Below are positions 18,518 through 54,329 of a stretch of 64,000 bases of DNA, in pieces. Origin of the DNA: Eunapius fragilis (Eukaryota; Porifera; Demospongiae; Spongillida; Spongillidae); the NCBI GenBank assembly GCA_963681505.1, contig OY811980.1, positions 8,648,955 to 8,712,954 on the forward strand, written 5' to 3'. Position numbers and translations under genes: made by a program. Position 1 is the stretch's first letter. Each line of letters opens with the position of its first letter. The notes under the pieces were generated by a model. It was not told the DNA's origin, made no database searches, and saw only the letters and a list, made by a program, of their open reading frames with translations.

Positions 18518-18518
18518 A

Positions 18519-18988: not shown

Positions 18989-19981
18989 CACAGCGATTCG
19001 ATTGCCCTGCCGCGGGCCCGTAAGGTCACGTAAATTCATTTGTAACCCTGACGTTACGGATTACGTTGTCATCAGGCGTACGTACCCCGCGTTCGGACCG
19101 ATTACTCACGGGAATAGGATTACGGTCGTAATCTTCATCCGTGTGTTTGCGCGTGAGTACGTGAGCAACATCCGCAAGACTACGTTATTACACCGTGATT
19201 TCATCCCCGTTCCCACGATAATGACTCGTTCCCAGTAGTAACATGCATTAATAAATTACCCAGCAATTTCTTTCAAATATAATTTAATAACGTTTTACAT
19301 ATGCATGTACAGAGGGGAATATAGCGATTTTACAAGTAGAGCCAATTGATGAGACCATGGCAGAAGCCTCTTCCACCCTGGCTGCATATGCCTAGCCAAA
19401 TAGAGCACTAAAACACACGGATGCTGAACGATCTGCTCTACCTGGTATAATGAATACTCCTTCATGATGCGCTTGATCCCGCCGCCTGCATGCACGCAGC
19501 TAGAGAGGCCTTAACTTTTGTATACGTAGGGATCGCTTGGCACGCCTAGCTGAATCGTCACCTATTAGGGTCGATACAGGGTTAAATTTTAAAATTCACC
19601 AACAGCACTAACTTTTATACAAACCTCCTCTTTATCGATGTTCTTCTATTCAATCCTGGTAAGAAACGCTAGGTGTGAAAGAAAAAGCAATCCACCGCAG
19701 AGGGGCGCTGTAAAAATCTGCCTGTGAAGAAGCCGCTAACCTTCAAGGATCAGTGTAGTTTTCCTCAACTGGGGTTACACAATTGTAGGACCTGCAAGGC
19801 ATATGACACGCGGGGTAAAACAAAAAACCTCATCGTGTTGGTGTCACACCTTGTTTGACTTGTTTGTTTCAGAGCCTTACTAGAAAACACTTACCTATGT
19901 CGAGCGCAATATTTATCAGTACGCAGCGCAACATGCACCCTTTAAACGAAGTGTGCAACTTACCAGTACGTCGTAGAATGA

Positions 19982-20086
19982 ATGGCTACCAGCAGCAAAC
20001 GTACGCGTGTAAAACGTGCCCCTCCTGAGGCCTGCAAAAAATGTAAAAGGCAGAATACGTACGCTGGGTTTTCTATCTCACCATAG
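19982..20086 (+). CDS. Doubtful 34-codon ORF inside island 1
   Basis: The ATG at 19982 opens a 34-residue frame ending at TAG 20084-20086. The peptide is strongly basic (KRTRVKR near residues 6-12) and has a CxxC pair (residues 18 and 21), vaguely like a nuclear or zinc-binding N-terminus. I recognise no family. It lies in the right half of the putative transposon, just upstream of another small ORF in a different frame, so the two could be remnants of one gene broken by a frameshift or intron. Coding is not demonstrated. Confidence 0.12.
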   Translation: MATSSKRTRVKRAPPEACKKCKRQNTYAGFSISP

Positions 20087-20106
20087 TTTTGTATAGAACA
20101 CGGAAC

Positions 20107-20277
20107 ATGTCTCGAAACAGCCATTTTGCCAAAAAGGTCATCTACAAGCGGAAACGAAAATATAACAGAATCACCAGGGCACTTTGTGAGCATTTAGAAC
20201 AATTAGAGGGTATTGAATGGGCGTTGCGTATATTTGAGTCTGAGTACGAGGCCCATTTTGGTTTGCGATGCCCGTAA
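20107..20277 (+). CDS. Doubtful 56-codon ORF inside island 1
   Basis: The first ATG in this frame is at 20107 and the stop is at 20275-20277. The product begins MSRNSHFAKKVIYKRKRKYN and continues with a predicted amphipathic stretch (ALCEHLEQLEGIEWALRIFE). Composition is unlike the surrounding low-complexity frames, so it could be a relic exon of a transposon gene, but no domain is recognised and it is short enough to arise by chance. It ends 82 bp before the right terminus of the element. Confidence 0.15.
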   Translation: MSRNSHFAKKVIYKRKRKYNRITRALCEHLEQLEGIEWALRIFESEYEAHFGLRCP

Positions 20278-20359
20278 ACATTCGTTACGTGAACTCCCCG
20301 TTGGTCTCATAAAATACGTGATACGTAGTCGTACGCAATCAGACGCCTGAATTGCTGTG

Positions 20360-20738
20360 TAGTGGGATTGGTAGTGGTAGTGGTAGTGGGATTGGTAGTG
20401 GGATTGGTAGTGGTAGTGGTAAGGGCAGTTGGATTGGTAGTGGGATTGGTAATGGTAGTGGTAGTGGTAGTGGGATTGGTAGAGATAGTGATAGAGGAAG
20501 TGGGATTGGTAGTGGTAATAGGAGTGGGATTGGTAGTGGGATTAGTAGTGGTAGTGGTAGAGGTAGTAGGATTGGTTGTGGTAGTGGTAGTGGTAGTGGG
20601 ATTGGTAGTGGGATTGGTATTGAGATTGGTAGTAGCAGTGGTAGTGGTAGTGGGATTGGTAGTGGGAGTGGTAGTGGGATTGGTAGTGGTAGAGGTAGTG
20701 AGATTGGTATTGAGATTGGTAGTGGTAGTGGTAGTGGT
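20360..20738 (-). repeat. Satellite family D, G-rich on + strand, block 1
   Basis: A mixture of 12-bp GGGATTGGTAGT and 6-bp GGTAGT units, with sporadic GAGATT, GGTATT and GGTAAT variants. The + strand has almost no C. Strand is set to minus because the C-rich reading (ACTACCAATCCC) is taken as the reference. The block matches 22616-22975 (offset about 2240 bp), sharing variants such as GGTAAGGG, AGAGATAGTG and GGTAATAGGAGTGGG. Units are multiples of three, so several frames stay open without coding. Confidence 0.9.
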
Positions 20739-20848
20739 TCAATCTGCAAAAATTCAGCACAATTCGGCGCGCTGCGACGGATGCCTGTACTTTCGCAGGA
20801 ACAATCTGTAACAATTCGGGGCAATTCGGCGCATCGAGACCGATAGCC
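20739..20848 (+). repeat. Family C insert between D blocks
   Basis: About two C monomers. They enter abruptly from GGTAGTGG at TTCAATCTGCAAAAATTC and leave in GAGACCGATAGCC followed by TAGTGGTAGTGGG. A closely similar insert is at 22976-23086, so the C-D combination was duplicated as one block. Confidence 0.85.
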
Positions 20849-22195
20849 TAGTGGTAGTGGGATTGGTAGTGGTAGTGGTAGTGGGATTGGTAGTGGGATT
20901 GGTAGTGGTAGTGGTAGTGGTAGTGGGATTGGTAGTGGTAGTGGTAGTGGTTGTGGGATTGGTAGTGGATTGGTAGAGGGATTGGTAGTGGGATTGGTAG
21001 TTTTAGTGGTAGTGGGATTGATAGTGGTAGTGGAAGAGGTAGTGGGATTGGTAGTGGGATGGGTAGTGGTAGTGGTAGTGGTAGTGGGATTGGTAGTGGG
21101 ATTGGTAGTGGTAATTTTAGTGGTAGTGGGATCGGTAGTGGGATTTGTACTGGTAGTGGTATTGGGATTGGTAGTGGTAGTGGTAGTGGGATTGGTAGTG
21201 GTAGTGGTAGTGGTAGTGGGATTGTTAGTGGGATTGGTAGTGGGATTGGTTGTGGTAGTGGGATTGGTAGTGGGATTGGTAGTGGGATTGGTAGTGGGAT
21301 TGGTAGTGGGATTGGTAGTGGTAGTGGTTGAGGTAGTGGGATTGGTAGTGGGATTGGTAGTGGGATTGGTAGTGGTAGTGGGATTGGTAGTGGGATTGGT
21401 AGTGGGATTGGTAGTGGGACTGGTAGCGGTAGTGGTAGTGGTAGTGGGATTGTTAGTGGGATTGGTAGTGGGATTGGTAGTGGGATTGGTAGTGGTAGTG
21501 GTAGTGGTAGTGGGATTGTTAGTGGGATTGGTAGTGGGATTGGTAGTGGAAATTGTAGTGGTCGTGGGATTAGTAGTGGGATTGGTAGTGGTAGTGGGAT
21601 TGGTAGTGGGATTGGTAGTGGGATTGGTAGTGGGATTGGTAGTGGTAGTGGGATTGGTAGTGGTAGTGGTAGAGGTAGTGGGATTGGTAGTGGGATTGGT
21701 AGTGGTAGTTGTAGTGGTAGTGGGATTGGTAGTGGGATTGGTAGTGGGATTGGTAGTGGGATTGGTAGTGGTAATTGTAGTGGTAGTGGTATCGGTAGTG
21801 GGATTTGTAGTGGTAGTGGTAGTCGGATTGGTAGTGGTAGTGGTAGAGGGATTGTTAGTGGGATTGGTAGTGGGATTGGTAGTGGAAATTGTAGTGGTCG
21901 TGGGATTGGTAGGGGACTTGGTAGTGGTAGTGGTAGATCGATTGCTAGTGGTAGTGGTAGTGGGATTGGTAGTGGGATTGGTAGTGGTAGCGGTAATGGG
22001 ATTGGTAGTGGGATTGGTAGTGGTAATTATAGTGGTAGTGGGATAAGTAGTGGGATTGGTATTGGTAGTGGTAGTGGGATTGGAAGTGGTAGTGGTAGTG
22101 GGATTTGCCGCGGTATTGGTAGTGGAATTGGTTGTGGGTTTGTTTGTGGTAGTGGTAGTGGTAGTGGGATTGGTAGTGGTATTTGAAGTGGGATT
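20849..22195 (-). repeat. Satellite family D, G-rich on + strand, block 2
   Basis: About 1.35 kb of GGGATTGGTAGT and GGTAGT units. Rare variants mark internal duplications, for example GGAAATTGTAGTGGTCGTGGG near 21548 and 21889 and again near 23947 and 24218. The 3' edge reads GAAGTGGGATTGCAGGATC as it passes into family C. No gene is seen. Confidence 0.9.
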
Positions 22196-22615
22196 GCAGG
22201 ATCTATCTGTAACAATTCAGCGCAATTCGGCGCGCTGCGACGGATTGGTGCACTTTTGCGGGATTTATCTGTAACAATTTGGCGCAATTTGGCGCGCTGC
22301 GACGGATTGCAGCACTTTCGCGGAACCAATCTGTAACAATTCGGCGCGCTACAACGGATTGCTGCACTATCGCTGGATCAATCTGCAACAATTCGGGGCA
22401 ATTCGGCGCGCTGAGACCGATTGCTTCACTATGGCGGGATTAATCTGCAACAATTAGGCGCAATTCGGCACGCTGAGACGGATTGCTGCACTTTTGCGGG
22501 ATCAATCTGCAATATGTTACTTGGCACAATTCGGTGCGCTGCGACCGATTGATGCACTTTCGCTGGATCAATCTGATACAATTCGGGGCAATTCGGCGCG
22601 CCGAGACCGATTGCT
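22196..22615 (+). repeat. Satellite family C, block 3
   Basis: Six to seven C monomers, long and short forms mixed. The order of variants (TTTGCGGGAT, then CGCGGAACC, CTATCGCTGG and ACTATGGCGGG) repeats at 24325-24640 and resembles 18519-18780. It ends in GAGACCGATTGCT then TAGTGGTAG, the same C-to-D switch point used at 18981, 20849 and 23087. Confidence 0.9.
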
Positions 22616-22975
22616 TAGTGGTAGTGGGATTGGTAGTGGGATTGGTAGTGGTAGTGGTAAGGGTAGTGGGATTGGTAGTGGGATAGGTAATGGTAGTGGT
22701 AGTGGTAGTGGGATTGTTAGAGATAGTGGTAGAGTTAGTGGGATTGGTAGTGGTAATAGGAGTGGGATTGGTAGTGGGATTAGTAGTGGTAGTGGTAGAG
22801 GTAGTGGGATTGGTTGTGGTAGTGGTAGTGGTAGTGGGATTGGTAGTGGGATTGGTATTGAGATTGGTAGTACTAGTGGTAGTGGTAGTGGGATTGGTAG
22901 TGGGAGTGGTAGTGGGATTGGTAGTGGTAGAGGTAGTGAGATTGGTATTGAGATTGGTAGTGGTAGTGGTAGTGG
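22616..22975 (-). repeat. Satellite family D, G-rich on + strand, block 3
   Basis: A duplicate of 20360-20738. Its left edge is the uninterrupted version of the site into which island 1 inserted, and so serves as the empty-site reference. Confidence 0.9.
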
Positions 22976-23086
22976 TTCAATCTGCAAAAATTCAACACAA
23001 TTCGGCGCGCTGCGATGGATGCCTGTACTTTCGCAGGATCAATCTGTAACAATTCGGGGCAATTCGGCGCACCGAGACCGATTGCT
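22976..23086 (+). repeat. Family C insert, second copy
   Basis: A duplicate of 20739-20848 with few differences (AACACAATTCGG for AGCACAATTCGG, GATGGATG for GACGGATG). Confidence 0.85.
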
Positions 23087-24324
23087 TAGTGGTAGTGGGA
23101 TTGGTAGTGGTAGTGGTAGTGGGATTGGTAGTGGGATTGGTAGTGGTAGGTGTAGTGGTAGTGGGATTGGTAGTGGGATTTGTAGTGGGATTGGTAGTGG
23201 TAGTGGGATTGGTAGTGGGATTGGTAGTGGGATTGGTAGTGGGATTGGTAGTGGGATTGGTAGTGGTAGTGGTAGTGGGATTGATTGGTGGTGGGATTGG
23301 TAGTGGGATTGGTAGTGGAAATTGTAGTGGTAGTGGGATTGGTGGGGGAAATGGTAGTGGTAGTGGTAGTGGGATTGGTAGTGGCAGTGGTAGTGGGATT
23401 GGTAGTGGGATTGGTAGTGGTAGTGGTAGTGGGATTGGTAGTGGGATTGGTAGTGGGATTGGTAGTGGTAGCGGTAGTGGGATTGGTAGTGGTAGTGGAA
23501 GAGGTAGTGGGATTGGTTGTGGGATTGTTAGTGGTAGTGGTAGTGGTAGTGGGATTGGTAGTGGGATTGGTAGTGGGATTGGTAGTGGTAATTGTAGTGG
23601 TAGTGGGATCGGTAGTGGGATTTGTAGTGGTAGTGGTATTGGGATTGGTAGTGGTGGTGGTAGTGGGATTGGTAGTGGTAGTGGTAGTGGTAGTGGGATT
23701 GTTAGTGGGATTGGTAGTGGGATTGGAAGTTGTAGTGGGATTGGTAGTGGGATTGGTAGTGCGATTGGTAGTGGGATTGGTAGTGGTAGTGGTAGTGGGA
23801 TTGGTAGTGGTAGTGGTAGAGGTAGTGGGATTGGTAGTGGGATTGGTAGTGGGATTGGTAGTGGGATTGGTAGTGGGATAGGTAGTGGGATTGGTAGTGG
23901 TAGTGGTAGTGGTAGTGGGATTGTTAGTGGGATTGGTAGTGGGTTTGGTAGTCGAAATTGTAGTGGTCGTGGGATTGGTAGTGGGATTGGTAGTGGTAGT
24001 GGTAGAGGTAGTGGGATTGGTAGTGGGATTGGTAGTGGTAGTTGTAGTGGTAGTGGGATTGGTAGTGGGATTGGTAGTGGGATCGGTAGTGTGATTGGTA
24101 GTGGTAATTGTAGAGGTAGTGGGATTGGTAGTGGGATTTGTAGTGGTAGTGGTAGTGGGATTGGTAGTGGTAGTGGTAGTGGGATTGTTAGTGGGATTGG
24201 TAGTGGGATTGGTAGTGGAAATTGTAGTGGTCGTGGGATTGGTATGGGACTTGGTAGTGGTAGTGGTAGTGGGATTGCTAGTGGTAGTGGTAGTGGGATT
24301 GGTAGTGGTAATTGAAGTGGGATT
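23087..24324 (-). repeat. Satellite family D, G-rich on + strand, block 4
   Basis: About 1.24 kb of 12-bp and 6-bp units. It shares variant blocks with 20849-22195, including GGTGGTGG, GGTAATTGTAG and GGAAATTGTAGTGGTCGTGGG. It passes into C at GAAGTGGGATTGCGGGATC. No gene is seen. Confidence 0.9.
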
Positions 24325-24659
24325 GCGGGATCAATCTGTAACAATTCAGCGCAATTCGGCGCGTTGCGACGGATTGGTGCACTTTTGCGGGATCTATCTA
24401 ACAATTTGGCGCAATTTGGCGCGCTGCGACGGATTGCAGCACTTTCGCGGAACCAATCTGTAACTATTCGGCGCGCTACAACGGATTGCTACACTATCGC
24501 TGGATCAATCTGCAACAATTCGGGGCAATTCGACGCGCTGAGACCGATTGCTTCACTATGGCGGGATCAATCTGCAACAATTAGGCGCAATTCGGCGCGC
24601 TGCGAAGGATTCCTGCACTTTCGCAGGATCAATCTGTAACAATTCGGGGCAATTCGGGA
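24325..24659 (+). repeat. Satellite family C, block 5
   Basis: About five to six monomers matching 22196-22500. The last C motif, CAATTCGGGGCAATTCGGGA, runs directly into CAAGTATGTCATTATG of family E at 24660. Confidence 0.9.
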
Positions 24660-34800: not shown

Positions 34801-37049
34801 TGCAGGAGTCAAGTATCTCCATGAATGACTCCTGCAGGAGTCAAGTATGTCAGTACGTATGACTCCTGCAGGAGTCAAGTATGTCTTTCAAGAATTTCAA
34901 TGTATGACTCCTGCAGGAGTCAAGTATTTCAATTATGACTCTTGCATGAGTCAAGTATGTCAATATGTCTGACTCCTGCAGGAGTCAAGTATTTCAATGT
35001 ATGACTCCTGCAGGAGTCAAGTATTTCAATATGTATGCTGCAGGAGTAAAGTATGTCAGTATGCATGACTCCTGCAGGAGTCAACTATATATTTGCATGA
35101 TTCCTGCAGGAGTCAAATATGTCAGTATGGAAGACTCCTGCAGGAGTCAAGTATCTCAATGTATGACTCCTGCAGGAGTCAAGTATCTCCAAGCATGACT
35201 TCTGCAGGAGTCAACTATGTCATTATGTCTGACTCCTGCAGGAGTCAAGTATTTCAATGTATGACTCCTGCAGGAGTCAAGTGTATCAATATGTATGACT
35301 CCTGCAGGAGTCAAGTATCTCCATGTATGACTCCTGAAGGAGTCAAGTATGTCAGTATCAATGACTACTACAGGAGCCATATGTCAATATGTATGACTCC
35401 TGCAGGAGTGAGCAATCTCCATGTATGACTCCTGCAGGAGTAAAATATGTCACTATGAATGACTCCTGCAGGAGTCAAGTATGTCAGTTTGGATGACTTG
35501 TGCAGGAGTCAAGTATTTCAATGCATGACTCCTGCAGGAGTAAAGTATGTCAATATGTATGACTCCTCCAGTAGTCAATTATCTCCATGCATGACTCCTG
35601 CAGGAGTCAAGTATGTCAGTATGGAATACTCTTGCAGGAGTCAAGTATCTCAATGTATGACTCCTGCAGGAGTCAAGTGTCTCCATGCATGACTCCTGAA
35701 GGAGTCAAGTATGTCAGTATGTATGACTCCTGCAGGAGTCAAGTATCTCCATGAATGACTCCTGCAGGACTCAAGTAGGTCAGTATGAATGACTCCTGCT
35801 GGAGTCATAAGTCAATTTGTATGAATCCTGCAGGAGTCAGCAATTTCCATGTATGACTCCTGCAGGAGTCAAGTATGTCAAAATGTATGAGTCCTGCAGG
35901 AGTCAAGTATGTCAATATGTATGACTCCTGTAGGTGTCAACTATTTATTTGCATGACTCCTGCAGGAGTCAAGTAAGTCAGTTTGTATGACTGCTGCAAG
36001 AGTCAAATATGTTACAATGAATGACTCCTGCAGGAGTCAAGTATGTCAGTATGCAAGACTCCTGCAGGAGTCAAGTATCTCAATGTATGACTCCTGCAGG
36101 AGTCAAGTATCTCCAAGCATGACTCCTGCAGGAGTCAAGTATGTCAATATGTCTGATTCCTGCAGGAGTCAAGTATTTCAATGTATGACTCCTGCAGGAG
36201 TCAAGTATATCAATATGTATGACTCCTGCAGGAGTCAAGTATCTCCATGTATGAGTCCTGAAGGAGTCAAGTTTGTCAGTATCAATGACTACTACAGGAG
36301 CCATATGTCAATATGTATGACTCCTGCAGGAGTGAGCAATCTCCATGTATGACTCCTGCAGGAGTAAATTGTGTCACTATGAATGACTCCTGCAGGAGTC
36401 ACGTATTTCAATATATGACTCCTGCAGGAGTGAAGTATTTCATTGAATGACACCTGCAGGAGTCAAGAATGTCAATATGTATGACTCTTGCAGGAGTCAA
36501 GGATCTCCGTACATGTAACCTGCAGAAGTCTAGTATGTCAGTATCAATGACTCCTGCAGGAGTCAAGTATTTCAATGTATGACTCAAGTATTTCAATGTA
36601 TGACTCCTGCAGGAGTCAAATATGTCATGATGTATGACTATTGCAGGAGTCAACTCTATTCTTAGATGTCAATATGTATGACTTCTGCAGGAGTCAAGTA
36701 TCTCCATGCATGACTCCTACAGGAGTGAAAAATCTCCATGTATGACTCCAGCAGGAGTCAAATATGTCACTATGAATTACTCCTGCAGGAGTGAAGTATT
36801 TCAATGAATGACTCCTGCAGGAGTGAAGTATTTCAATGAATGACTCCTGCCGGAGTGAAGTATTTCAATGAATGACTCCTGCAGTAGTCAAGAATGTCAA
36901 TATGTATGACTCATGCAGGAGTGAAGGGTCTCCGTGCATGACACCTGCAGGAGTCAAGTATGTCAGTATCAATGACTCCTGCAGGAGTCAAGTATTTCAA
37001 TGTATGACTCAAGTATTTCAATGTATGACTCCTGAAGGAGTCAAATATC

Positions 37050-37071
37050 GAGAGTTACGTTAGTAACTCTC
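37050..37071. repeat. Terminal hairpin of the 1462-bp insertion
   Basis: Arms GAGAGTTAC (37050-37058) and GTAACTCTC (37063-37071) pair perfectly around the loop GTTA, one or two bases inside the left boundary of the insertion. Confidence 0.85.
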
Positions 37072-37092
37072 ATATAGGATTTGACCCCGATT

Positions 37093-37326
37093 ATGAATGT
37101 CATTAAAAAAACGCGACCCGCTTCTAACAAGACTCCCGACGAGCGGATGGCTTACCTTGTTATCGTCGTCGTACAAGAAGGCAACAACAAGCAGTTTCGT
37201 GTTTGTTTGATGTCACAAAACCGCGTGGTTGTAGAGAACAAAACAATTTTTGAAACTCGTACCCAGTCCCACGTATTTCTCGTTCTTCTTCTTCTTCTTC
37301 TTGTTCTTGTTCTTGACCACGCATAA
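37093..37326 (+). CDS. Doubtful 77-codon ORF inside the insertion
   Basis: The ATG at 37093 lies shortly after the subterminal 14-mer; the stop is at 37324-37326. The first 58 residues have mixed composition (MNVIKKTRPASNKTPDERMA, then QEGNNKQFRVCLMSQ), unlike the surrounding repeats. The tail is a leucine run encoded by a TTC/TTG microsatellite. No family is recognised. It may be a 5' fragment of a transposon gene or chance. Confidence 0.15.
   Translation: MNVIKKTRPASNKTPDERMAYLVIVVVQEGNNKQFRVCLMSQNRVVVENKTIFETRTQSHVFLVLLLLLLVLVLDHA
37283..37315 (+). repeat. (TTC)n/(TTCTTG)n microsatellite
   Basis: Six uninterrupted TTC units followed by TTGTTCTTG-type units, inside the 1462-bp insertion. 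Confidence 0.85.
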
Positions 37327-37351
37327 CTCGGGATAGGAACACTTTTAAGAA

Positions 37352-37618
37352 ATGAAAATCACACCAATGGCTTCAGAATTTACTGGCATTTTCGCTTCTG
37401 TGGTCAAAACGTCTCGAGGCTACATGACATTTATCGGTGGTTGTGTTAGCAAATCACGTATAGCTTACTGCACTGACACGACTCGGATAGGTCCTACGTC
37501 GCTCTTTATACGAAGTACTAGCAGTATACATCAAATGTGTACGGTCTGGGCACTACACGTAGTGGTAATTAACTTTGGCGGTTATGTATTTTTAATAACG
37601 TGCACGTGCGTACTATAA
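37352..37618 (+). CDS. Doubtful 88-codon ORF inside the insertion
   Basis: The ATG at 37352 runs to the stop at 37616-37618. The product has a hydrophobic C-terminal stretch (WALHVVVINFGGYVFLITC) that could be one membrane segment, but no domain, conserved motif or upstream signal supports it. A poly-T/pyrimidine tract ending in CAG (about 37663-37697) follows, resembling a 3' splice site before the decayed repeat-protein segment. Confidence 0.12.
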   Translation: MKITPMASEFTGIFASVVKTSRGYMTFIGGCVSKSRIAYCTDTTRIGPTSLFIRSTSSIHQMCTVWALHVVVINFGGYVFLITCTCVL

Positions 37619-37697
37619 TCATTCTATCGTTTAGGTTTGACGCTCTTTGTAACTTAGTGAAGTTTTTTTTTCTCAAAATGCCTTCATGCACGTCAGG

Positions 37698-38250
37698 ATA
37701 AGGAGAAAGCCAAACGACGAGCATAGTACCTCAAAACTAGAGACGACGTATTAGATTCAGCCCGAGCGGAACTACAAAGCAGAGCCTGAAAAGAAGCGGG
37801 CCTCTCAAACGTGAAAACTATCGAGCAGAGCCTGAAAAGAAACGGATCTCTCGACGCGCAAGGTATCGAGATGCGATTAGTGGGGGAGAGGGTGCTGTCT
37901 GCTTCTGGCCCGATACAAAATGCGTTTGTGGGTTCGATCGCGCTGGGGCGACAATTAATAACCTCTCTTCTATTTCGGCCGCCCCTTAAAAGCCCCCTCA
38001 GATCCTGAAAAGGAACGGACCTCTCGACGTGCAAGGTATCGAGCAGATCCTGAAAAAAGACAGCGATATTGCCATAGTCCTGAACGTGCATCTCGCTCGG
38101 CGAAAAAAGTTAAGGTCACTCAATGGTATGTCGTACCTTTACAACCTCCCTCTCATATCAAGATGGATTACTTAACATGCTATACGGCTCATAATCGGGT
38201 ATGAATAAAAATCAATGAAACAAGTAAATAAAAACATTCTCTATGAGAAA
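37698..38250 (+). pseudogene. Decayed 15-residue-repeat protein fragment (YRA(D/E)PEKKR type)
   Basis: Four copies of a 45-bp unit start at 37779, 37825, 37998 and 38043. The best encodes AEPEKKRISRRARYR and the last reads ADPEKRQRYCHSPERASRSA. The 45-bp spacing is exact between the last two, while the first two are 46 bp apart, a +1 frameshift. The leading part (DKEKAKRRA, then a TAG stop, then YLKTRDD) fits the same basic pattern. About 130 unrelated bases separate the second and third units. Similar basic repeats occur upstream of other domains in mobile-element and multigene-family proteins of invertebrates (from memory, not searched). Stops and frameshifts mean it is not functional. The start assumes the splice-like CAG at about 37695-37697. 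Confidence 0.4.
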
Positions 38251-38510
38251 GTTGGTGGCATATAGGATTTGAAGGCAATGGTGGTGTAAAAAGGAAGGAA
38301 ACAAGGGTCTAGTAATAAGGAAAAATGGAATAGTCCTATATTTAGCACATTTCTATATGTAGGATATAGTATGTTGTTCGTGTGCTAAATATAGGACTAT
38401 TCCATTTTTCCTTATTACTAGACCCTTGTTTCCTTCCTTTTTACACCACCATTGCCTTCAAATCCTATATGCCACCAACTTTCTCATAGAGAATGTTTTT
38501 ATTTACTTGT
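38220..38510. repeat. Foldback element with perfect 130-bp arms
   Basis: The left arm 38220-38349 and right arm 38381-38510 are exact reverse complements by eye, separated by a 31-base loop. The arms begin ACAAGTAAATAAAAACATTC and end CTATATTTAGCACA. The right arm ends at the boundary of the 1462-bp insertion, so it coincides with the insertion's right terminus. A transcript would fold into a 130-bp double-stranded hairpin. It could be a foldback or MITE-type element, or an inverted duplication of the insertion's own end. No flanking target duplication of its own is evident. Confidence 0.9.
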
Positions 38511-41500
38511 ATCATTATGTATGACTATTGCAGGAGTCAAGTCTATACTTGCATGACTCCTGCAGGAGTCAAGTATTTCAATGTATGACTCCTGCAGGAG
38601 TCAAGTATGTCAGTATGTATGACTCCTGCAGGAGTCAACTATTTATTTGCATGACTCCTGCAGGAGTCAATGTATGACTACTGCAGGAGTCAAATATGTC
38701 ATTATGAATGACTCCTGCAAGAGTCAAGTATCTCCATGCATGACTCCTGCAGGAGTCATAAATGTCAGTATGAATGACTCCTGCAGGAGTCATATGTCAA
38801 TTTGTATGACTCCCGCAGGAGTGAGCAATCTCCATGTATGACTCCTGCAAGAGTATGAGTCCTGCAGGAGTCAAGTATGTCAATATGAATGACTCCTGTA
38901 GGAGTCAACTATTTATTTGCATGACTCCTGTAGGAGTCAAGTACGTCAGTTTGTATGACTGCTGCAGGAGTCAAATATGTTACAAAGAATGACTCCTGCA
39001 GGAGTCAAGTATTTCAATGTATGACTCTTACCAGAGTCAAATTTGTCAGTATGCATGACTCCAGCAGGAGTCAAATAATTCAATGAATGACTCCTGCAGG
39101 AGTAAAGTATGTCAATATGTATGACTCCTCCACGAGTCATTTATCTCCATGCATGACTCCTGCAGGAGTCAAGTATGTCAGTATGCAAGACTCCTGCAGG
39201 AGTCAAGTATCTCAATGAATGACTCCTGCTAGAGTCAAGTATCTCCATGCATGACTCCTGCAGGAGTCAAGTATGTCAGTATGTATGACTCCTGCAGGAG
39301 TCAAGTATGTCTCTCAAGAAATTCAATGTATGACTCCTGCAGGAGTCAAGTATTTCAATTATGACTCTGCAGTAGTCAAGTATGTCAATATGTCTGACTC
39401 CTGCAGGAGTCAAGTATCTCCATGCATGACTCCTGCAGGAGTCAAGTATGTCAGTATGCATGACTCCAGCACGAGTCAAGTATCTCAATGTATGACTCCT
39501 GCAGGATGCAAGTATGTCATTATGCAAGTATGTCACTATAACTCCTGCAAGATGCAAGTATGTCACTATGCATGACTCCTGTAGGAGTCAAGAATTTAAA
39601 TGATTGACTCCTGCGGGAGTCAAGTATTTCAATGTATGACTCCTGCGGGAGTCAAGTATTTCAAAGCATAACTCCCGCAGGAGTCAAGTATGTCAATATG
39701 TAGGACTCCTGCAGGAGTCAAGTATCTCAATGTATGACTCCTGCAAGTGTCAAGTATGTCACAATGCAACTCTCCTGCATGAGTCAAGTATTTCAATGTA
39801 TGACTCCTGCAGTAGTCAAGGATGTCAATATGTATGACTTCTGCTGGAGTGAAGTTTCTCCATGCATGACTCCTACAGGAGTGAAAAATCTCCATGCATG
39901 ACTCCTGCAGGAGTCAAGTATGTCAGTATGTTTGACTCCAGAAGGAGTCAAGTATGTCACTATGAATGACTCCTGCAGGAGTCAAGTATTTCAATGTATG
40001 ACTCCTGCTGGAGTGAAGTGTTTCAATGTATGACTCCTGAAGGAGTCAAGTATGTCAGTATCATTGACTACTACAGGAGCCATATGTCAATATGTATGAC
40101 TCATGCAGGATTGAGCAATCTCCATGCATGACTCCTGCAGGAGTATGAGTACTGCAGGAGTCAAGTATGTCAATATGTATGACTCCTGTAGGAGTCAACT
40201 TTTTATTTGCATGACTCCTGCAGGAGTCAAGTACGTCAGTTTGTATGACTGCTGCAGGAGTGAAATATGTTACAATGAATGACTCCAGCAGGAGTCAAGT
40301 ATTTAAATGTATGACTCCTACAAGAGTCAAGTTTGTCAGAATGCATGACTCCGGCAGGAGTCAAATAGATATTTGAATGACTCCTGCAGGAGAATAGTAT
40401 GTCAATATGTATGACTCCACCCGGAGTCATTTATCTCCATGCATGACTCCTGCAGGAGTCAAGTATGTCAGTATGCAAGACTCCTGCAGGAGTCAAGTAT
40501 CTCAATGTATGACTCCGGCTGGAGTCAAGTATCTCCATGCATGACTCCTGCAGGAGTCAAGTATGTCAGTATGTATGACTCCTGCAGGAGTCAAGTATGT
40601 CTCTCAAGAATTTCAATGAATGACTCCTGCAGGAGTCAAGTATTTCAATTATGACTCTTGCAGGAGTCAAGTATGTCAATATGTATGACTCCTGCAGGAG
40701 TCAAGTATTTCAATGTATGACTCCTGCAGGAGTCAAGTATTTCAATATGTATGCTGCAGGAGTAAAGTATGTCAGTATGCATGACTCCTGCAGGAGTCAA
40801 CTATATATTTGCATGATTCCTGCAGGAGTCAAGTATGTCGGTATGCAAGACTCCTGCAGGAGTCAAGTATCTCAATGTATGACTCCTGCAGGAGTCAAGT
40901 ATCTCCAAGCATGACTCCTGCAGGAGTCAAGTATGTCATTATGTCTGACTCCTGCAACAGTCAAGTATTTCAATGTATGACTCTTGCAGGAGTCAAGTGT
41001 ATCAATATGTATGACTCCTGCAGGAGTCAAGTATCTCCATGTATGACTCCTGAAGGAGTCAAGTATGTCAGTATCAATGACTACTACAGGAGCCATATGT
41101 CAATATGTATGACTCCTGCAGGAGTGAGCAATCTCCATGTATGACTCCTGCAGGAGTAAAATATGTCACCATGAATGACTCCTGCAGGAGTCAAGTATGT
41201 CAGATTGGATGACTTGTGCAGGAGTCTAATATGTCAAAATGAACGACTCCTGCAGGAGTCAAGTATTTCAATGTATGACTCATACAAGAGTCAAGTTTGT
41301 CAGTATGCATGACTCCAGCAGGAGTCAAATATTTCAATGAATGACTCCTGCAGGAGTAAAGTATGTCAATATGTATGACTCCTCCAGTAGTCAATTATCT
41401 CCATGCATGACTCCTGCAGGAGTCAAGTATGTCAGTATGCAAGACTCCTGCAGGAGTCAAGTATCTCAATGCATGACTCCTGCTTGAGTCAAGTATCTCC

Positions 41501-44500
41501 ATGCATGACTCCTGCCGGAGTCAAGTGGGTCAGTATGAATGACTCCTGCTGGAGTCATATGTCAATTTGTATGACTCCTGCAGGAGTCAGCAATCTCCAT
41601 GTATGACTCCTGCAGGAGTCAAGTATGTCAGAATGTATGAGTCCTGCAGGAGTCAAGTATGTCAATATGTATGACTCCTGTAGGTGTCAACTATATACTT
41701 GCATGACTCCTGCAGGAGTCAAGTAAGTCAGTTTGTATGACTGCTGCAGGAGTCAAATATGTTACAATGACTCCTGCAGGAGTCAAGTATGTCAGTATGC
41801 AAGACTCCTGCAGGAGTCAAGTATCTCAATGTATGACTCCTGCAGGAGTCAAGTATCTCCATGAATGACTCCTGCAGGAGTCAAGTATGTCAGTACGTAT
41901 GACTCCTGCAGGAGTCAAGTATGTCTTTCTAGAATTTCAATGTATGACTCCAGCAGGAGTCAAGTATTTCAATTATGACTCTTGCATGAGTCAAGTATGT
42001 CAATATGTATGCTGCAGGAGTAAAGTATGTCAGTATGCATGACTCCTGCAGGAGTCAACTATATATTTGCATGATTCCTGCAGGAGTCAAATATGTCAGT
42101 ATGGAAGACTCCTGCAGGAGTCAAGTATCTCAATGTATGACTCCTGCAGGAGTCAAGTATCTCCAAGCATGACTCCTGCAGGAGTCAACTATGTCATTAT
42201 GTCTGACTCCTGCAGGAGTCAAGTATTTCAATGTATGACTCCTGCAGGAGTCAAGTGTATCAATATGTATGACTCCTGCAGGAGTCTAGTATCTCCATGT
42301 ATGACTCCTGAAGGAGTCAAGTATGTCAGTATCAATGACTACTACAGAAGCCACATGTCAATATGTATGACTCCTGCAGGAGTGAGCAATCTCCATGTAT
42401 GACTCCTGCAGGAGTAAAATATGTCACTATGAATGACTCCTGCAGGAGTCAAGTATGTCAGTTTGGATAACTTGTGCAGGAGTCAAGTATTTCAATGTAT
42501 GACTCCTGCAGGAGTAAAGTATGTCAATATGTATGACTCCTCCAGTAGTCAATTATCTCCATGCATGACTCCTGCAGGAGTCAAGTATGTCAGTATGGAA
42601 TACTCCTGCAGGAGTCAAGTATCTCAATGTATGACTCCTGCAGGAGTCAAGTGTCTCCATGCATGACTCCTGAAGGAGTCAAGTATGTCAGTATGTATGA
42701 CTCCTGCAGGAGTCAAGTATCTCCATGAATGACTCCTGCAGGAGTCAAGTAGGTCAGTATGAATGACTCCTGCTGGAGTCATATGTCAATTTGTATGAAT
42801 CCTGCAGGAGTCAGCAATTTCCATGTATGACTCCTGCAGGAGTCAAGTATGTCAAAATGTATGAGTCCTGCAGGAGTCAAGTATGTCAATATGTATGACT
42901 CCTGTAGGTGTCAACTATATATTTGCATGACTCCTGCAGGAGTCAAGTAAGTCAGTTTGTATGACTGCTGCAAGAGTCAAATATATCACAATGAATGACT
43001 CCTGCAGGAGTCAAGTATGTCAGTATGCAAGACTCCTGCAGGAGTCAAGTATCTCAATGTATGACTCCTGCAGGAGTCAAGTATCTCCAAGCATGACTCC
43101 TGCAGGAGTCAAGTATGTCAATATGTCTGATTCCTGCAGGAGTCAAGTATTTCAATGTATGACTCCTGCAGGAGTCAAGTATATCAATATGTATGACTCC
43201 TGCAGGAGTCAAGTATCTCCATGTATGAGTCCTGAAGGAGTCAAGTTTGTCAGTATCAATGACTACTACAGGAGCCATATGTCAATATGTATGACTCCTG
43301 CAGGAGTGAGCAATCTCCATGTATGACTCCTGCAGGAGTAAAATATGTCACTATGAATGACTCCTGCAGGAGTCACGTATTTCAATATATGACTCCTGCA
43401 GGAGTGAAGTATTTCATTGAATGACACCTGCAGGAGTCAAGAATGTCAATATGTATGACTCTTGCAGGAGTCAAGGATCTCCATACATGAAACCTGCAGG
43501 AGTCTAGTATGTCAGTATCAATGACTCCTGCAGGAGTCAAGTATTTCAATGTATGACTCAAGTATTTCAATGTATGACTCCTGCAGGAGTCAAATATGTC
43601 ATGATGTATGACTATTGCAGGAGTCAACTCTATACTTAGATGTCAATATGTATGACTTCTGCAGGAGTCAAGTATCTCCATGCATGACTCCTACAGGAGT
43701 GAAAAATCTCCATGTATGACTCCAGCAGGAGTCAAATATGTCACTATGAATGACTCCTGCAGGAGTGAAGTATTTCAATGAATGACTCCTGCAGGAGTGA
43801 AGTATTTCAATGAATGACTCCTGCCGGAGTGAAGTATTTCAATGAATGACTCCTGCAGTAGTCAAGAATGTCAATATGTATGACTCTTGCAGGAGTCAAG
43901 GGTCTCCGTGCATGACACCTGCAGGAGTCAAGTATGTCAGTATCAATTACTCCTGCAGGAGTCAAGTATTTCAATGTATGACTCAAGTATTTCAATGTAT
44001 GACTTCTGAAGGAGTCAAATATATCATTATGTATGACTATTGCAGGAGTCAAGTCTATACTTGCATGACTCCTGCAGGAGTCAAGTATTTCAATGTATGA
44101 CTCCTGCAGGAGTCAAGTATGTCAGTATGTATGACTCCTGCAGGAGTCAACTATTTATTTGCATGACTCCTGCAGGAGTCAATGTATGACTACTGCAGGA
44201 GTCAAATATGTCATTATGAATGACTCCTGCAAGAGTCAAGTATCTCCATGCATGACTCCTGCAGGAGTCATAAATGTCAGTATGAATGACTCCTGCAGGA
44301 GTCATATGTCAATTTGTATGACTCCCGCAGGAGTGAGCAATCTCCATGTATGACTCCTGCAAGAGTATGAGTCCTGCAGGAGTCAAGTATGTCAATATGA
44401 ATGACTCCTGTAGGAGTCAACTATTTATTTGCATGACTCCTGTAGGAGTCAAGTACGTCAGTTTGTATGACTGCTGCAGGAGTCAAATATGTTACAAAGA

Positions 44501-46809: not shown

Positions 46810-48660
46810 TAATAGTTTTAATTTGCAGTGCGATGTTTCTTCACATACTAAGGACATGTAATACAGTGTACACTTAAAATGATGTAGTTCCAGTATGTGC
46901 ACTTCTATACAATTTATGCAAGGAAAATTTGTAAGTCTGTTGGGTGGGTTGGCGGGTGGTTGGTCCTTCCCATAGTGCATCAAGATGTTCTAACAAGCCC
47001 ATCGTGGCACATGTAACCTTACCTTAGTGACAAGGCCATATGCAGGTACTGTAGTGCTTTTTACTACCGCTGCATACGTGTGTTCAAATTATACATGGCA
47101 CTGCAGGTGTCAAGCTAGCTGGTAAAAGACACGCCACACGTGTAAGTGAAGCCTGGTTAATTCATGGACAACGACTTAATTTAGGTGACAAGGTAGGTAC
47201 GGTAGTGCGTTTGAATCGCACGGCTTAGAGATATAATATTGAACGTGGCCTAGCAGATGTGAATTAAGCTCGTAGGTGGCACGCCAGTCGTGTGGGAAGC
47301 TTAGTTAATAGAAAAAACTTGTATCAACGGCCAAATGTGCGGACGCTATACAAAAAAGTAATTAGGAACGTACATCGATGGAAGTTCAATAGACGAGAAC
47401 AAAGTTCGGTCTTGCGTTGGCAGTCTGTCCTCGCTCCTGTGCCACACATTTCTAAAGGATGAAAGGTGTAAGGCAAGGCTATGGCAAATTTGAAAGAATC
47501 CAGTGGTTGTACATAAAGGGACTCACGCATTGTATTCCGGAATAGGTCGTACACTCTCCCGCGTACCCCTGTTGCACCTTCAGAAATGTGCGGCACGTAT
47601 ATCCCACCCTTCGTACCTGTTTAAACAGCTCAGCTCTGCTATTGAGGCCAATCGCTACGAAGTGCATTAAAAGGAATAATTAATAAGTAACTATTTCAAA
47701 TTCAAATTTTAAGGATTAGATTGGTACATAGCGTACAGGTTGCTTATTGTAGTGACGCAAGGATTTTTAAAAGGTGAGTGAGGGGCAAAGCTTATATCTG
47801 TGAGGAGTGTGTGTGCAGTGTGTTTGCGCTGGATGGTCTGCCTCGTAACTAGAGGTCTACTTGATGCAGCAATTGGTCCTATATGGTGCTTACGATACGC
47901 CAGAGCACAACGCATTCTTCCAACAACACATCATAATGCAGTCGCGCTTTGAACCTATTGTACACTACGTCAAGCCTTGATGTTAGTAAAATAGACACCC
48001 GTAAATGACATTCAAGCTAAACAATTACTGCTCTGTTCAGAGCAACCATACAATTATACCTGGTGCTAACCACAAGGATTCGTAGCACAGTGCAACACTG
48101 GGCAAGATGATAAACAAATAATTTTAGTCGTGCCCGGACCATACAATGTATTAAATCAATTGATTTTCAATTGGCAGCCAAACAAACTCAAGGCATAAGT
48201 GGTGTCGTGACTCTAAGCTTTTCCCATTGTAATGATAGCTTGTTTATGTGTGCCCGTGACCTAGAACGCTGACGGCGTAGTATGCATGGATTTGAACGAG
48301 GGTACCCATGTCTATTCTAAAGGCTAGAGTATGTTTGAAAGGCATTTGCAAGTGTGCACGCGACTACGAAAGCTTGCCCCGCGGGTATTTAGGCTAGTGT
48401 AAGCGTACCCGTGGCTATGTAAGCGATGTAAGTGAATACAAGTGCTCCCGTGACAACGTAAGCTTGCCCCGTGGCAATGTATGCGTACCCGTGGCTATGT
48501 AAGCGAATGATGTAAGTATACTATTAACATGGGGCACGGCAGATGTGAACGAAGGTTGTAAATAGCACGCGGTAGAAAGTGATGCTGTGGGTAGCACTTA
48601 CCAACATCCTCGACGAGCGTTTAATAGACGAGTACAAAGTACGGTTTTCACCTGGGCTGC
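46810..48660. other. Island 3: low-copy DNA without a recognisable gene
   Basis: About 1.85 kb of mixed-composition sequence between E and D. The open frames on either strand are short (90 codons or fewer) and resemble nothing I know; the longest, on the minus strand at 47324-47596, would need a GTG start. Internal similarity suggests an old, diverged repeat. GTGACAAGG with a following GTA(C/G)GGTAGTGC-like segment occurs at 47027 and 47185, and a GCAGATGTGAA..GCACGC segment occurs near 47253 and 48539. AATAGACGAG(A/T)ACAAAGT recurs near 47388 and 48622. No target duplication or terminal inverted repeat was found, and its edges lie against two different satellites. Confidence 0.6.
48361..48520 (+). 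repeat. Diverged 80-bp tandem repeat in island 3
   Basis: GCGTACCCGTGGCTATGTAA occurs at 48403 and 48483, 80 bp apart. Each is preceded by an AGCTTGCCCCG(C/T)G motif (48371 and 48462) and followed by GATGTAAGT. Shorter CCCGTGRC echoes nearby (48255, 48447) suggest a roughly 20-40-bp sub-period. Confidence 0.6.
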
Positions 48661-51570
48661 CCCACTACCAATCCCACTACCACTACCAATCCCACTACTA
48701 CTACCACAACCACTACCAATCCCACTACCACTACCAATCCCACTACCAATCCCACTACCACCACCACTATCAATCCCACTACCTCTATCACAATCACTAC
48801 CAATTCCACTACCACTACCACTTCCATTACCAATCCCACTACCAATTCCACTACCACTACCACTACCACTACCAATCCCACTACCAATCCCACTACCACT
48901 ACCAATCCCATTACCACTACCACTACCAATCCCACTACCAATCCCAATACCACTATCAATCCCACTACCACTACCACTACCAATCCCCCTACCAATCCCA
49001 CTACCACTACAATTACCACTACCAATCCCACTACCAATCCCACTACCACTACCACTACCAATCCCACTACCTCTACCACTATCACTACCAATCCCACTAC
49101 CACTGCCACTACCACTACCATTACCAATCCCACTACCTCTACCACTATCACTACCAATCCCTCTACCACTACCACTACCATTACCAATCCCACTACCAAT
49201 CCCACTACCAATCCCACTACCACTACCACTACCACTACCAATCCCACTTCTAATCCCACTACCACTACCACTATCAATCCCACTGCCACTACCGCTACCA
49301 ATCCCCCTACCAATCCCACTACCACTACTATTACCACTACCAATCCCACTACCAATCCCACTACCAATCCCACTACCACAACCACTACCACTACCAATCG
49401 CACTACCTCTATTACTACCACTACCAATCGCACTACCAATCCCACTACCACTACCACTACCAATCCCACTACCTCTACCACTATCACCACCAATCCCAAT
49501 ACCACTACCATTACCAATCCCAATTCCAATCCAATTACCATTACCACTTCCACTACCACTACCAATCCCACTGTCTCTATCACTACCACTACCAATCCCA
49601 CTACAAATCCCACTACCACCACCACTACCAATCCCACTACCAATCCCACTACCACTACCACTACCAATCCCACTACCACTACCACTACCAATCCCACTAC
49701 CATTACCACTACCAATGCCACTACCAATCCCGCTACCACTACAATTACCACTACCAATCCCACTACCAATCCCACTACCAATCCCACTACCACTACCACT
49801 ACCACAACCAATCCCACTACCAATCCCACTACCACAACCACGGCCAATCCCACTACCACTTCGACTTCCAATCCCATTACCATTACCACTACCAATCACA
49901 CTACCAATCCCACTACCACTACCACAACCACTACCAATCCCACAACCACTACAACTACCACTACCAATCCCACTACCAATCCCACTACCAACCACTACCA
50001 ATCGCACTACCTCTATCTCTACCACTACAAATTGCACTACCAATCCCACTACCACTACCACTACCACTACCAATCCCACTACCTCTACCACTATCACCAC
50101 CAATCCCACTACCACTACCACTACCACTACCATTACCATTCCCACTTCCAATCCCATTACCACTACCACTACCAATCCCACTACCAATCCCACTACCACT
50201 TCCACTACCAATCCCACTACCACTACTACTACTAATCCACCTACCAATCCCACTACCACTACAATTACCACTACCAATCCCACTACCAATACCACTACCA
50301 ATCCCACTACCTCTACCACTACCACTACCAATCCCACTACCAATCCCATACAACTATAACTACCAATCCCACTACCTCTATCACTATCACCAACATTCCC
50401 ACTACCACTACCACGCTACCAATCTCACTACCTATCCCACTACCACTACCACTACCAATCCCCCTACCAATCCCACTACCACTGCAATTACCACTACCAA
50501 TCCCACTACCAATCCCACTCCCACTACGGCTACCACTACCAATCCCACTACGACTACCACTACCACTACCAATCCCACTACCAATGCCACTACCAATACA
50601 ACTACCAATCCCACTACCTCTACCACTACCACTACCAATCCAACTACAAATCCCACTACCAATCCCACTACCTCTACCACTATCACCACCATTCCACTAC
50701 CACTACCACTACCATTACCAATCCCACTACCAATCCCACTAGCACAACCACTACCAATCCCACTACCACTACCACTTGTAATCCCCCTACCAATCCCACT
50801 ACCACTACAATTGCCATTACCAATCCCACTACCTATCCCACTACCAATCCCACTACCACTACCACTACCACTACCACTACCAATCCCACTATCTCTACCA
50901 CTACCACTACCAATCCCACTACCAATCCCACTACCACCACCACTACCAATCCCACTACCAATCCCACTACCACTACCACTACCAATCCCACTACCACTAC
51001 CACCACCAATCCCACTACCACTATCAGTACCAATCCCACTACCATTCACGCTACCACTACAATTACCACTGTTAATCCCACTACCAATCCCACTACCAAT
51101 CCCACTGCCAATCCCACTACAACTACCACTACCACTACCAATCCCACTACGACTACCACTACCACTACCAATCCCTCTACCAATCCCACTACCAATACAA
51201 CTACCAATCCCACTACCTCTACCACTACCAATCCCACTACCACTACCAGTACCAATCCCACTACCATTCACGCTACCACTACAATTACCACTGTTAATCC
51301 CACTACCAATCCCACTACCAATCCCACTGCCAATCCCACTACAACTACCACTACCACTACCAATCCCACTAAGACTACCACTACCACTACCAATCCCACT
51401 ACCAATCCCACTACCAATACAACTACCAATCCCACTACCTCTACCACTACCACTACCAATCCCACTACAAATCCCACTACCAATCCCACTACTTCTACTA
51501 CTATCACCACCATTCCCACTACCACTACCACTACCACTACAATTACCAATTCCACTACCAATCCCACTAC
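48661..51570 (+). repeat. Satellite family D, C-rich on + strand, block 5
   Basis: About 2.9 kb of ACTACCAATCCC (12 bp) and ACTACC (6 bp) units, with almost no G on the + strand: the inverse of the D blocks at 20-24 kb. From about 49985 it matches 57450 onward (offset 7465, then 7405). A tandem pair with CACGCTACCACTACAATTAC near 51049 and 51270 has a 222-bp spacing. Long open frames on both strands are by-products of units divisible by three. No gene is seen. Confidence 0.95.
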
Positions 51571-54329
51571 CGGCACAATTCAGCGCGCTGCTACCGATTG
51601 CTGCACTTTCACGGGATCTATCTGTAACAATTCGGCGCAATTCGGCGCGCATGGACGGATTGGTGCGCTTCGGCTGGACCAATCTGTAACAATTCGGCGC
51701 AATTCGGCGTGGTACGACCGATTGCTGCACATTCACGGGATCAATCTGTAACAACTCAGCGCAATTCGACGCGATGCGACAGATTGTTGCACTTTCACGG
51801 GATCAATCTGTAACAATTCGGCACAATTAGTCGCGCATGGACGGATTGGTGTGCTTCGGCTGGACCAATCTGTAACAATTCGGCGCAATTCGACGTGGTA
51901 CGACAGAGTGTTGCACTTTCACGGGATCAATTTTGTATCAATTCGGCGCCTTTGCGACGGATTGCTGCATTATCGCGGGATCAATCTGCAAGAATTCGGC
52001 ACAATTCGGCGCGCTGCGACCAATTGCTGCACTTTCACAGGTTCAATCTGTAACAATTCAGAGCAATTCGGCGTGCTGCAACGGATTGGTGCACTTTTGC
52101 GGGATCAATCTGCAACAATTCGGCACAATTCGGCGCGCTGCGACAGATTGCACCACTTTCGCGGAACCAATCTGTAACAATTCGGCGCGCTGCAACGGAT
52201 TGCTGCACTTTCACCGGGTCAAATCTGTAACAATTCAGCGCAATTCGGCGCGCTGCGACAGATTACTGCACTTTCGCAGGATCAATCTGTAACAATTCGG
52301 CGCAATTCGGCGTGGTGTGACCGATTGCTGCACATTCACGGGATCAATCTGTAACAACTCAGCGCAATTCGGCGCGATGCGACAGATTGTTGCACTTTCA
52401 CGGGATCAATCTGTATCAATTCGGCGGAATTTGGCGCGCTGCAACGGATTGCTGCATTATCGCGGGATCAATCTGCAACAAATCGGCACAATTCGGCGCG
52501 CTGCGACCAATTGCTGCACTTTCACGGGTTCAATCTGTAACAATTCAGCGCAATTCGGCGCGCTGCAACGGATTGGTGCACTTTTGCGGGATCAATCTGC
52601 AACAATTCGGCACAATTCGGCGTGCTGCGACAGATTGCACCACTTTCGCGGAACCAATCTGTAAGAATTCGGCGCGCTGCAACTGATTGCTTCACTTTCA
52701 CCGGGTAAATCTGTAACAATTCAGCACAATTCGGCGCGCTGCGACGGAATCCTGCACTTTCGCAGGATCAATCTGTAACAATTCGGCGCAATTCGGCGTG
52801 GTGTGACTGATTGCTGCACATTCACGAGATCAATCTGTAACAACTCAGCGCAATTCGGCGCGCTGCGACGGATTGCTGCACTTTCACGGGATCAATCTGT
52901 ACCAATTCGGCGCACTTCGGCGCGCTGCGACGGATTGGTGCACTTTAGCGGGACCAATATGCAACAATTCTGCACAATTCAGCGCGCTGCTACCGATTGC
53001 AGCACTTTCACGGGTTCTATCTGTAACAATTCGGCACAATTAGTCGCGCATGGACGGATTGGTGCGCTTCGGCTGGACCAATCTGTAACAATTCGGCGCA
53101 ATTCGGCGTGGTACGACAGATTGTTGCACTTTCACGGGATCAATCTGTATCAATTTGGCGCAATTCGGCGCGCTGCGACGGATTGCTGCATTATCGCGGG
53201 ATCAATCTGCAACAATTCGGCACAATTCGGCGCGCTGCGACCAATTGCTGCACTTTCACGGGTTCAATCTGTAACAATTCAGAGCAATTCGGCGCGCTGC
53301 AACGGATTGGTGCACATTTGCGGGATCAATCTGCAACAATTCGGCACAATTCGGCGCGCTGCGACAGATTGCACCACTTTCGCGGAACCAATCTGTAACA
53401 ATTCGGCGCGCTGCAACGGATTGTTGCACTTTCACCGGGTCAAATCTGTAACAATTCATCGCAATTCGGCGCGCTGCGACGGATTACTGCACTTTCGCAG
53501 GATTAATCTGTAACAATTCGGCGCAATTCGGCGTGGTGTGACCGATTGCTGCACATTCACGGGATCAATCTGTAACAACTCAGCGCAATTTGGCGCGATG
53601 CGACAGATTGTTGCACTTTCACGGGATCAATCTGTATCAATTCGGCGCAATTCGGAGCGCTGCGACGGATTGCTGCATTATCGCGGGATCAATCTGCGAC
53701 AATTTGGCACAATTCGGCGCGCTGCAACCCATTGCTGCACTTTCACGGGTTCAATCTGTAACAATTCAGAGCAATTCGGCGCGCTGCAACGGATTGGTGC
53801 ACTTTTGCGGGATCAATCTGCAACAATTCGGCACAATTCGGCGTGGAACGAACGATTGCACCACTTTCGCTTAACCAATCTGTAACAATTCAGCGCGCTG
53901 CTACGGATTGCTGCACATCCACCGGGAAATATCTGTAACAATTCGGTGCGCTGCGACGGATTCATGCACTTTCGCAGGATCAATCTGTAACAATTCGGCG
54001 CAATTCGGCGTGGTGTGACCGATTGCTGCACATTCACGGGATCAATCTGTAACAACTCAGCGCAATTCGGCGCGCTGCGACGGATTGCTGCACTTTCACG
54101 GGATCATTCTGTAACAATTCGGCGCAATTCGGTGCGCATGGACGAATTGGTGCACTTCGGCTGAAACAATTTGTAACAATTTGGCGCAAATCGGCGCGCT
54201 GCTACCGATTGCTGCTCTTTCGCGGGATCAATCTGCAACAATTCGGCGCAATTCGGTTCGCAATGACAGATTGTAGAAGTTTCGCGTGATCAATCTGCAA
54301 CAATTCGGCACAATTCGGCGCGCTGCGAA
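51571..54329 (+). repeat. Satellite family C, long block 1
   Basis: About 2.76 kb of 62-bp monomers with 51-bp short forms, in + orientation. Variants such as GCGCATGGACGGATTGGTGC, GGCGTGGTACGACAGATTG and TTCAATCTGTAACAATTCAG recur in a fixed order, giving a local higher-order period of several hundred bases (for example 51790 to 53030, 52317 to 53538). The block is duplicated at 58976-61672. No gene is seen. Confidence 0.95.

Follow-up and report, generated by a model that had tools for sequence, protein, structure and literature searches.

The window analysed here is a 64,000-nt stretch of contig OY811980.1 of the sponge Eunapius fragilis (GCA_963681505.1, positions 8,648,955 to 8,712,954). 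It contains a 1462-bp island that is very probably a non-autonomous Helitron-like transposon, i.e., one moved in a rolling-circle manner by a joined Rep/helicase (RepHel) protein, and that appears from sequence comparison to have arisen by internal deletion of a 13.56-kb element. The assignment is based on ends that are common to the short and long copies, insertion between A and T without duplication, an open RepHel frame with an OTU domain, identical short copies, and composite copies. The element belongs to a known broad class, and the unusual part of it is a ≈290-nt terminal palindrome with matched arms and an orientation that is sometimes flipped, which was missed in the original prediction for this DNA together with the TC at the 5′ end. 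The search space for copies was the host assembly (219 Mb, 24 contigs, one genome).

When the flanks of positions 37049–38510 are joined, they match window positions 43963–44082 at 119 of 120 bases, with the junction AGTCAAATAT/ATCATTATGT unchanged. The empty site thus lies at 44022/44023, and a second unit without the insert is found at 46696/46697 (117 of 120 flank bases matched). Neither shows duplicated or lost bases relative to the filled site, which agrees with the original prediction of an insertion with an exact empty site and no target duplication. Its description of two collinear 5.5-kb repeats is correct in the offsets, 6974 on the left and 5512 on the right, whose difference is 1462. 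As a statement on length it is rough, because the flanks of the insert are minisatellite and their alignment requires indels beyond the stretches that are collinear without gaps at exactly these offsets (35045–37048 and 38511–39496; 60-base windows with ≥80% identity). The break can indeed be placed between A and T, since the junction is ambiguous by one base: the insert is either 37049–38510 after TAT or 37048–38509 (TCGAG…ACTTG) between A and T. A deletion at 44022, raised earlier as a possible objection, is unlikely because two units are empty and other copies of the element sit in unrelated flanks. It was therefore rejected, and the comparison favors an insertion over a deletion at the empty units. 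Empty sites were also found for three other copies, L008 (120/120), L018 (193/200) and L027 (exact, within an autonomous copy).

At least 38 copies match all 1462 positions among the best 40 candidates scored, and 18 of these are identical, the window copy included. Such best-40 sets, which were also used for the autonomous 3′ ends and for each of three sister palindrome families, lean towards intact copies. In addition to the 38 full-length copies there is one that lacks 22 bases at its start, and contig C19 has a nested group. In the latter (L042, G000:C19:1031600-1036300) a short element lies within another short element at position 478 in inverse orientation. At a tolerance of up to 3 mismatches, the genome contains 336 occurrences of a 39-mer consisting of TAT and the first 36 bases of the element, and 2994 of the element's last 33 bases. 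The latter number corresponds to roughly 1500 right ends, since an intact palindrome is counted once per strand.

We read 30 of the 38 full copies. The left flank ends in AT in all 30 (29 TAT and one CAT), the right end is always CTTGT followed by differing DNA, and no copy has a target duplication. Comparing copies of the two ends, the check suggested at the outset, thus gave constant ends, always between A and T and always without duplication. The start in L052 reads TAA directly followed by TCGAG. The third target base is informative only in L052 and the 30 full-length copies, two of which (L025 and L027) have one left flank in common; L031–L041 were selected with a query starting with TAT. 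The simplest reading of these 31 starts is that TCGAG…ACTTG was inserted between A and T. The short element is a transposon that encodes no protein and has been active recently. One further copy (L038:4015-8997, G000:C1:4119057-4124039) is enlarged internally by 3.7 kb of partly low-complexity DNA, which is possibly captured. Two listed frames from this stretch gave no match in a Pfam scan.

A linked Rep/helicase gene in longer copies had been named as the deciding test, and such a gene was found. The genome has 91 Helitron_like_N matches, 18 of them at 91.7 bits, and the element's own 5′ end is located 3260–3265 bp upstream of at least 9 of these 18 (7 pairings were among 100 of the 336 5′-end places listed and 2 came from separately fetched loci). 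The autonomous copy that was read through is 13.56 kb long and has the same ends as the short element. Over the initial ≈1.1 kb and the terminal 312 bp of the window element it matches this element at about 88%. It encodes a 1996-aa frame with DUF6570, Helitron_like_N (PF14214, 86.5 bits), PIF1 (PF05970, 80.6 bits) and OTU domains, where both scores are above the cut-off. The Pfam scan found no endonuclease domain in this frame. Upstream of RepHel, a 212-aa frame (L049:844-1479) consists of 15-codon repeats of the RAEPEKKRAS type and has no Pfam match. Remnants of these repeats persist on the forward strand of the window at 37763–38061, as seen from direct repeats and from the match to the autonomous copy. 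The window copy is very probably an internally deleted derivative of the 13.56-kb element in the same genome. A pattern search for relatives of the RepHel protein in viral contigs gave no match.

The left end of the element has the order TC, hairpin, CATATAGGATTTGA, and the right end has the order inverted copy of CATATAGGATTTGA, short hairpin, 16 bases to CTTG, and then the target T. Within the element, which occupies the forward strand, the 5′ hairpin (37050–37071) is predicted by folding to have a 9-bp stem and a 4-nt loop, and two bases precede it at the 5′ end. The inverted repeat, asymmetric and 14 bp long, starts at nt 24 (37071–37084), where it has one base in common with this hairpin. 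Its 3′ copy on the reverse strand (38458–38471) ends 39 bp before 38510, upstream of the short subterminal hairpin TTCTC-ATA-GAGAA (38481–38493, from the sequence and a fold of the last 62 nt), which is followed by 16 nt including the CTTG end. This whole region is also palindrome arm. The end hairpin and the 14-bp subterminal inverted motif of the original prediction are both real, while its statement that TC…CTRR ends are lacking is right for CTRR, as the 3′ end is CTTG, and wrong for TC. By eye, the sister copy L036 keeps the order of TC, hairpin and repeat with a different stem sequence, whereas this order was not clearly seen in the sister starts in L031 and L009.

With Rep (HUH) and a PIF1-type helicase in one protein, as seen in the one autonomous copy, and precise insertion between A and T without target-site duplication, the element has the features of the Helitron superfamily. 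The fit to rolling-circle elements was thus well judged, since constant ends, the A and T target and the lack of duplication hold in 30 of 30 copies and RepHel is encoded by long copies with the same ends. There is no need for the unclassified type that was also considered, because the 5′ hairpin, 14-bp repeat and 3′ hairpin resemble the layout published for Helitron2 and FoHeli, with the exception of the position of the 5′ repeat. Helitron2 as described by Bao and Jurka (2013, PMC3627910) likewise has RepHel proteins, hairpins at both ends, an asymmetric terminal inverted repeat of 8–15 bp and a 5′ T, and in that description some families insert without target duplication, as here, and others with it. 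The sponge element differs in that its 3′ repeat is 39 bp from the end instead of 20–30 bp, the 5′ repeat lies 3′ of the hairpin, the target is A and T, an OTU domain is present, and the 3′ end is a ≈290-nt palindrome. Among the layouts compared, the closest described one is that of FoHeli1 and FoHeli2 from Fusarium oxysporum, which according to the available description (PMC5148889) start with TC directly followed by a 5′ hairpin, have a target ending in AT and a 3′ inverted repeat 38–51 bp from the end, and show a one-base ambiguity at the start. In the same account FoHeli elements end in ATTTT, carry a 12-bp repeat within the hairpins and are 5–6 kb long, and that account contains no long palindrome, unlike the element described here. 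By layout the element would therefore be a Helitron2-like non-canonical Helitron and a putative member of Helitron2, with most but not all of the terminal features of that group; the RepHel comparison establishes distance from the canonical type.

Several points weigh against the Helitron-like assignment. The 3′ end is CTTG in all 30 full copies read and so not the canonical CTRR, and CTTG is not among the ends given for Helitron2 and FoHeli in the descriptions at hand (PMC3627910, PMC5148889). The 5′ repeat lies 3′ of the hairpin at nt 24, while in Helitron2 it is 0–2 bp from the end and in the hairpin. One autonomous copy was read through, and the suggestion that the short element is mobilized in trans derives only from the common ends.

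If the element were a canonical Helitron (Helitron1) whose 3′ end has diverged slightly, this would account for the 5′-TC, the insertion between A and T, the RepHel protein and the short hairpin that lies 16 nt before the 3′ end. We consider this very unlikely, because the end is CTTG, the element has a 5′ hairpin as well as an asymmetric inverted repeat, and the Rep is far from canonical: it scores 86.5 bits with PF14214 against 214.7 bits for a canonical Helitron copy of the same genome, to which it is 23% identical over 324 positions. The match of the autonomous protein to Helraiser is confined to the helicase part (residues 1242–1691, 91 bits); the canonical copy, in contrast, aligns with Helraiser over residues 11–802 and scores 834 bits. 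The elements Helraiser and Helibat are, in the text available (PMC4778049), similar in inserting between A and T, in having a terminator hairpin and in capturing DNA by read-through, and different in their CTAG end, 19-bp hairpin and canonical Rep. The OTU domain and the non-canonical Rep could instead indicate a Helentron, a member of the group that carries an endonuclease, or a HINE descended from such an element. The subterminal repeat 39 bp from the 3′ end is within the 38–60 bp given for HINEs, and the Helentron/HINE/DINE-1 group, as far as it is described in PMC4067079, likewise has OTU proteins, subterminal repeats and non-autonomous members that arose from RepHel elements by deletion. 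The endonuclease domain joined to RepHel and the TT target of that group are missing here, the former by Pfam in the 1996-aa frame and the latter since the target is A and T, so that this origin is just as improbable. Other elements that insert without duplication have next to no probability. IS200/IS605-like elements are similar in carrying hairpins close to their two ends and in having a short, fixed target on the 5′ side. These elements, other single-tyrosine HUH elements such as Replitrons, and Cryptons were dropped once RepHel turned out to be encoded by a full-length relative that has the same ends; the nine pairings of 5′ end and Rep at constant spacing are not due to chance.

The right end of the element is a perfect palindrome that reaches the last base. 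On the forward strand it consists of an inner arm (38220–38349), a 31-base spacer or loop (38350–38380), whose orientation relative to the body varies between lineages, and an outer arm that extends to the 3′ terminus (38381–38510), and the 130-bp arms are complementary at 130 of 130 positions. As DNA it folds with −154.2 kcal/mol compared with a mean of −23.0 in 200 shuffles (z = −36). Palindromes of this kind were found in four element families, namely the short/autonomous type and three sister families. For the autonomous type 15 such 3′ ends were listed, of which the 14 besides L050 were read; for 14 of the 15, a 91.7-bit Rep match lies 9.9–11.8 kb upstream, the exception being C20:49169. 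The sister families gave 40 scored matches each, and these also match on the opposite strand along almost their full length. No pairing of sister palindrome families with particular RepHel genes was seen when the position lists were compared by eye only. In one of the sister families (L013:141-425, L069–L074) all 40 scored 3′ palindromes are 100% identical, which may represent another very recent burst.

This near-perfect foldback, and the 40 scored matches at 100% in one related family, might suggest that the palindrome is a separate foldback element or MITE that has landed at the element end. That is highly improbable, and a stand-alone MITE was rejected: in the copies read, one side of the palindrome is conserved body (GAA/ACAAG junction) and the other side varies by copy, and the palindrome ends the autonomous type too.

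In 16 distinct hairpins, with the majority of the left arms as reference, 127 arm columns deviate symmetrically, 38 on one side and 7 to different letters. Of the 45 non-symmetric columns 22 come from a single divergent hairpin (L035), and as symmetric changes are common by descent within subfamilies, 127 is not a count of events. In a fixed alignment of 18 hairpins, 44 of 130 pairs have two-sided changes, compared with a mean of 11.9 in shuffles, none of 500 being as high; alignments that were slid as a control gave 3–14. Of the 2332 cells 97.6% pair; 98 cells are changed on both sides, 16 are changed on one side and still pair, and about 56 are unpaired. The few one-sided intermediates point to copying from one arm to the other and not to compensation in single steps. 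Selection acting solely on the paired structure would also account for the 44 pairs with two-sided changes and for the presence in four families. We regard it as rather unlikely in view of the 98 against 16 cells and of the matched changes between closely related copies, among them a deletion of one base in both arms (L032), as arm-to-arm copying gives. The palindrome is a persistent feature, and its arms are most likely kept alike by template switching, or by hairpin repair while the strand is single. Template switching between inverted repeats is described as homogenizing arms and inverting spacers (PMC8604942) and as fixing stem pairing (PMC8794818), as far as these sources were available.

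Both orientations of the palindrome relative to the body occur in three families. The autonomous spacer scores 6.5 against the window spacer when inverted and 1.5 when direct, with 3.0 as the best of 500 shuffles, and in the autonomous set (with L050) 11 ends have one orientation and 4 the other, uniformly within each sequence lineage. In the 31-type family the body side of L075, L076, L078 and L079 is opposite to that of L077 with the same loop. Among 20 further junctions of this type, L093 and L098 have the body on the L077 side, with the L077 body variant, and the remaining 18 have other DNA on that side, the body side of these 18 being deduced from the presence of other DNA on the side that was fetched. 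The 35-type family has the body on one side in L080 and L083 and on the opposite side in L081 and L082. A single orientation is kept by 30 of 30 short-element copies and by 6 of 6 copies read of the 13-type family, which speaks against an obligatory flip in each cycle. Flips would thus be recurrent between lineages and rare per transposition, and template switching between inverted repeats could explain them without special machinery.

The palindrome could also be a working terminus: by folding back, the displaced strand would pair its last base, and this foldback would either prime second-strand synthesis or be re-copied and resolved. An analogue for such a foldback is the rolling-hairpin replication of parvoviruses. 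We consider this unlikely; if true, it would account for the paired 3′ terminus, the homogenization of the arms and the two orientations in three families, and the element would be a Helitron-like element with an evolved viral-style hairpin end. In the portions of the literature covered by our searches, there was no description of a Helitron with a long terminal palindrome or of a rolling-hairpin transposon.

For the Helitron-like reading, composite copies give a view of how the elements may move. On C4 a short element (L027) is nested inside RepHel of a long copy, which was read at its 5′ end (L052) and 3′ end (L055), and both flanks of the nested element match the autonomous copy. A copy on C9 (L025 with L051, G000:C9:1605445-1612782) begins at the family 5′ end amid other flanking DNA, breaks off in RepHel where the short element nests, and ends exactly at the nested 3′ end; its 1500-base right flank has no match to the autonomous copy. 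From this arrangement we infer that an upstream 5′ end and the next downstream 3′ end can define a mobile unit. Furthermore, two 10.3-kb units (L040 and L041, G000:C1:363655-373958 and 227779-238075) differ in both left and right flanks, and their comparison over ≈9 kb gave 3 indels and no mismatch. In each, 7.3 kb of other DNA, with a stretch that matches a Death domain (24.9 bits), lies between two short elements; the second of these was read over its first 186–196 bases and at its 3′ end. These units would fit read-through from one 3′ end to the next, similar to the read-through capture shown for Helraiser in the text available (PMC4778049). Both kinds of composite, as structures, fit events of rolling-circle, one-way movement. 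Under such a mechanism the RepHel protein of the long copies would act in trans on the short element and nick at the 5′ TC, and its helicase would peel off one strand. The 3′ end, with the 14-bp repeat, the short hairpin and CTTG in the ≈290-nt foldback, would be read as the terminator, and the displaced strand, probably circular, would be joined between A and T.

Searches relying on TC…CTRR would miss this family despite its 336 left and roughly 1500 right ends, and Helitron ends of non-canonical type are less well described. The palindrome may give direct access to how termination works at Helitron 3′ ends, to how it fails (read-through capture) and to the evolution of these ends, with the symmetric arm changes and flips as a natural record of a folded single-strand end or of template switching.

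The same genome also contains a separate canonical Helitron lineage (L043–L048, PF14214 210–220 bits), in which copy L045 has the motif EFQKRGLPHAH and the 834-bit match to Helraiser. In the window itself, positions 8893–24500 and 48500–63700 are occupied by very long arrays that resemble simple repeats and have several reading frames open over long distances (NPTT, GIGSGSG and PLPI repeats). These are satellite-rich surroundings and probably not genes.

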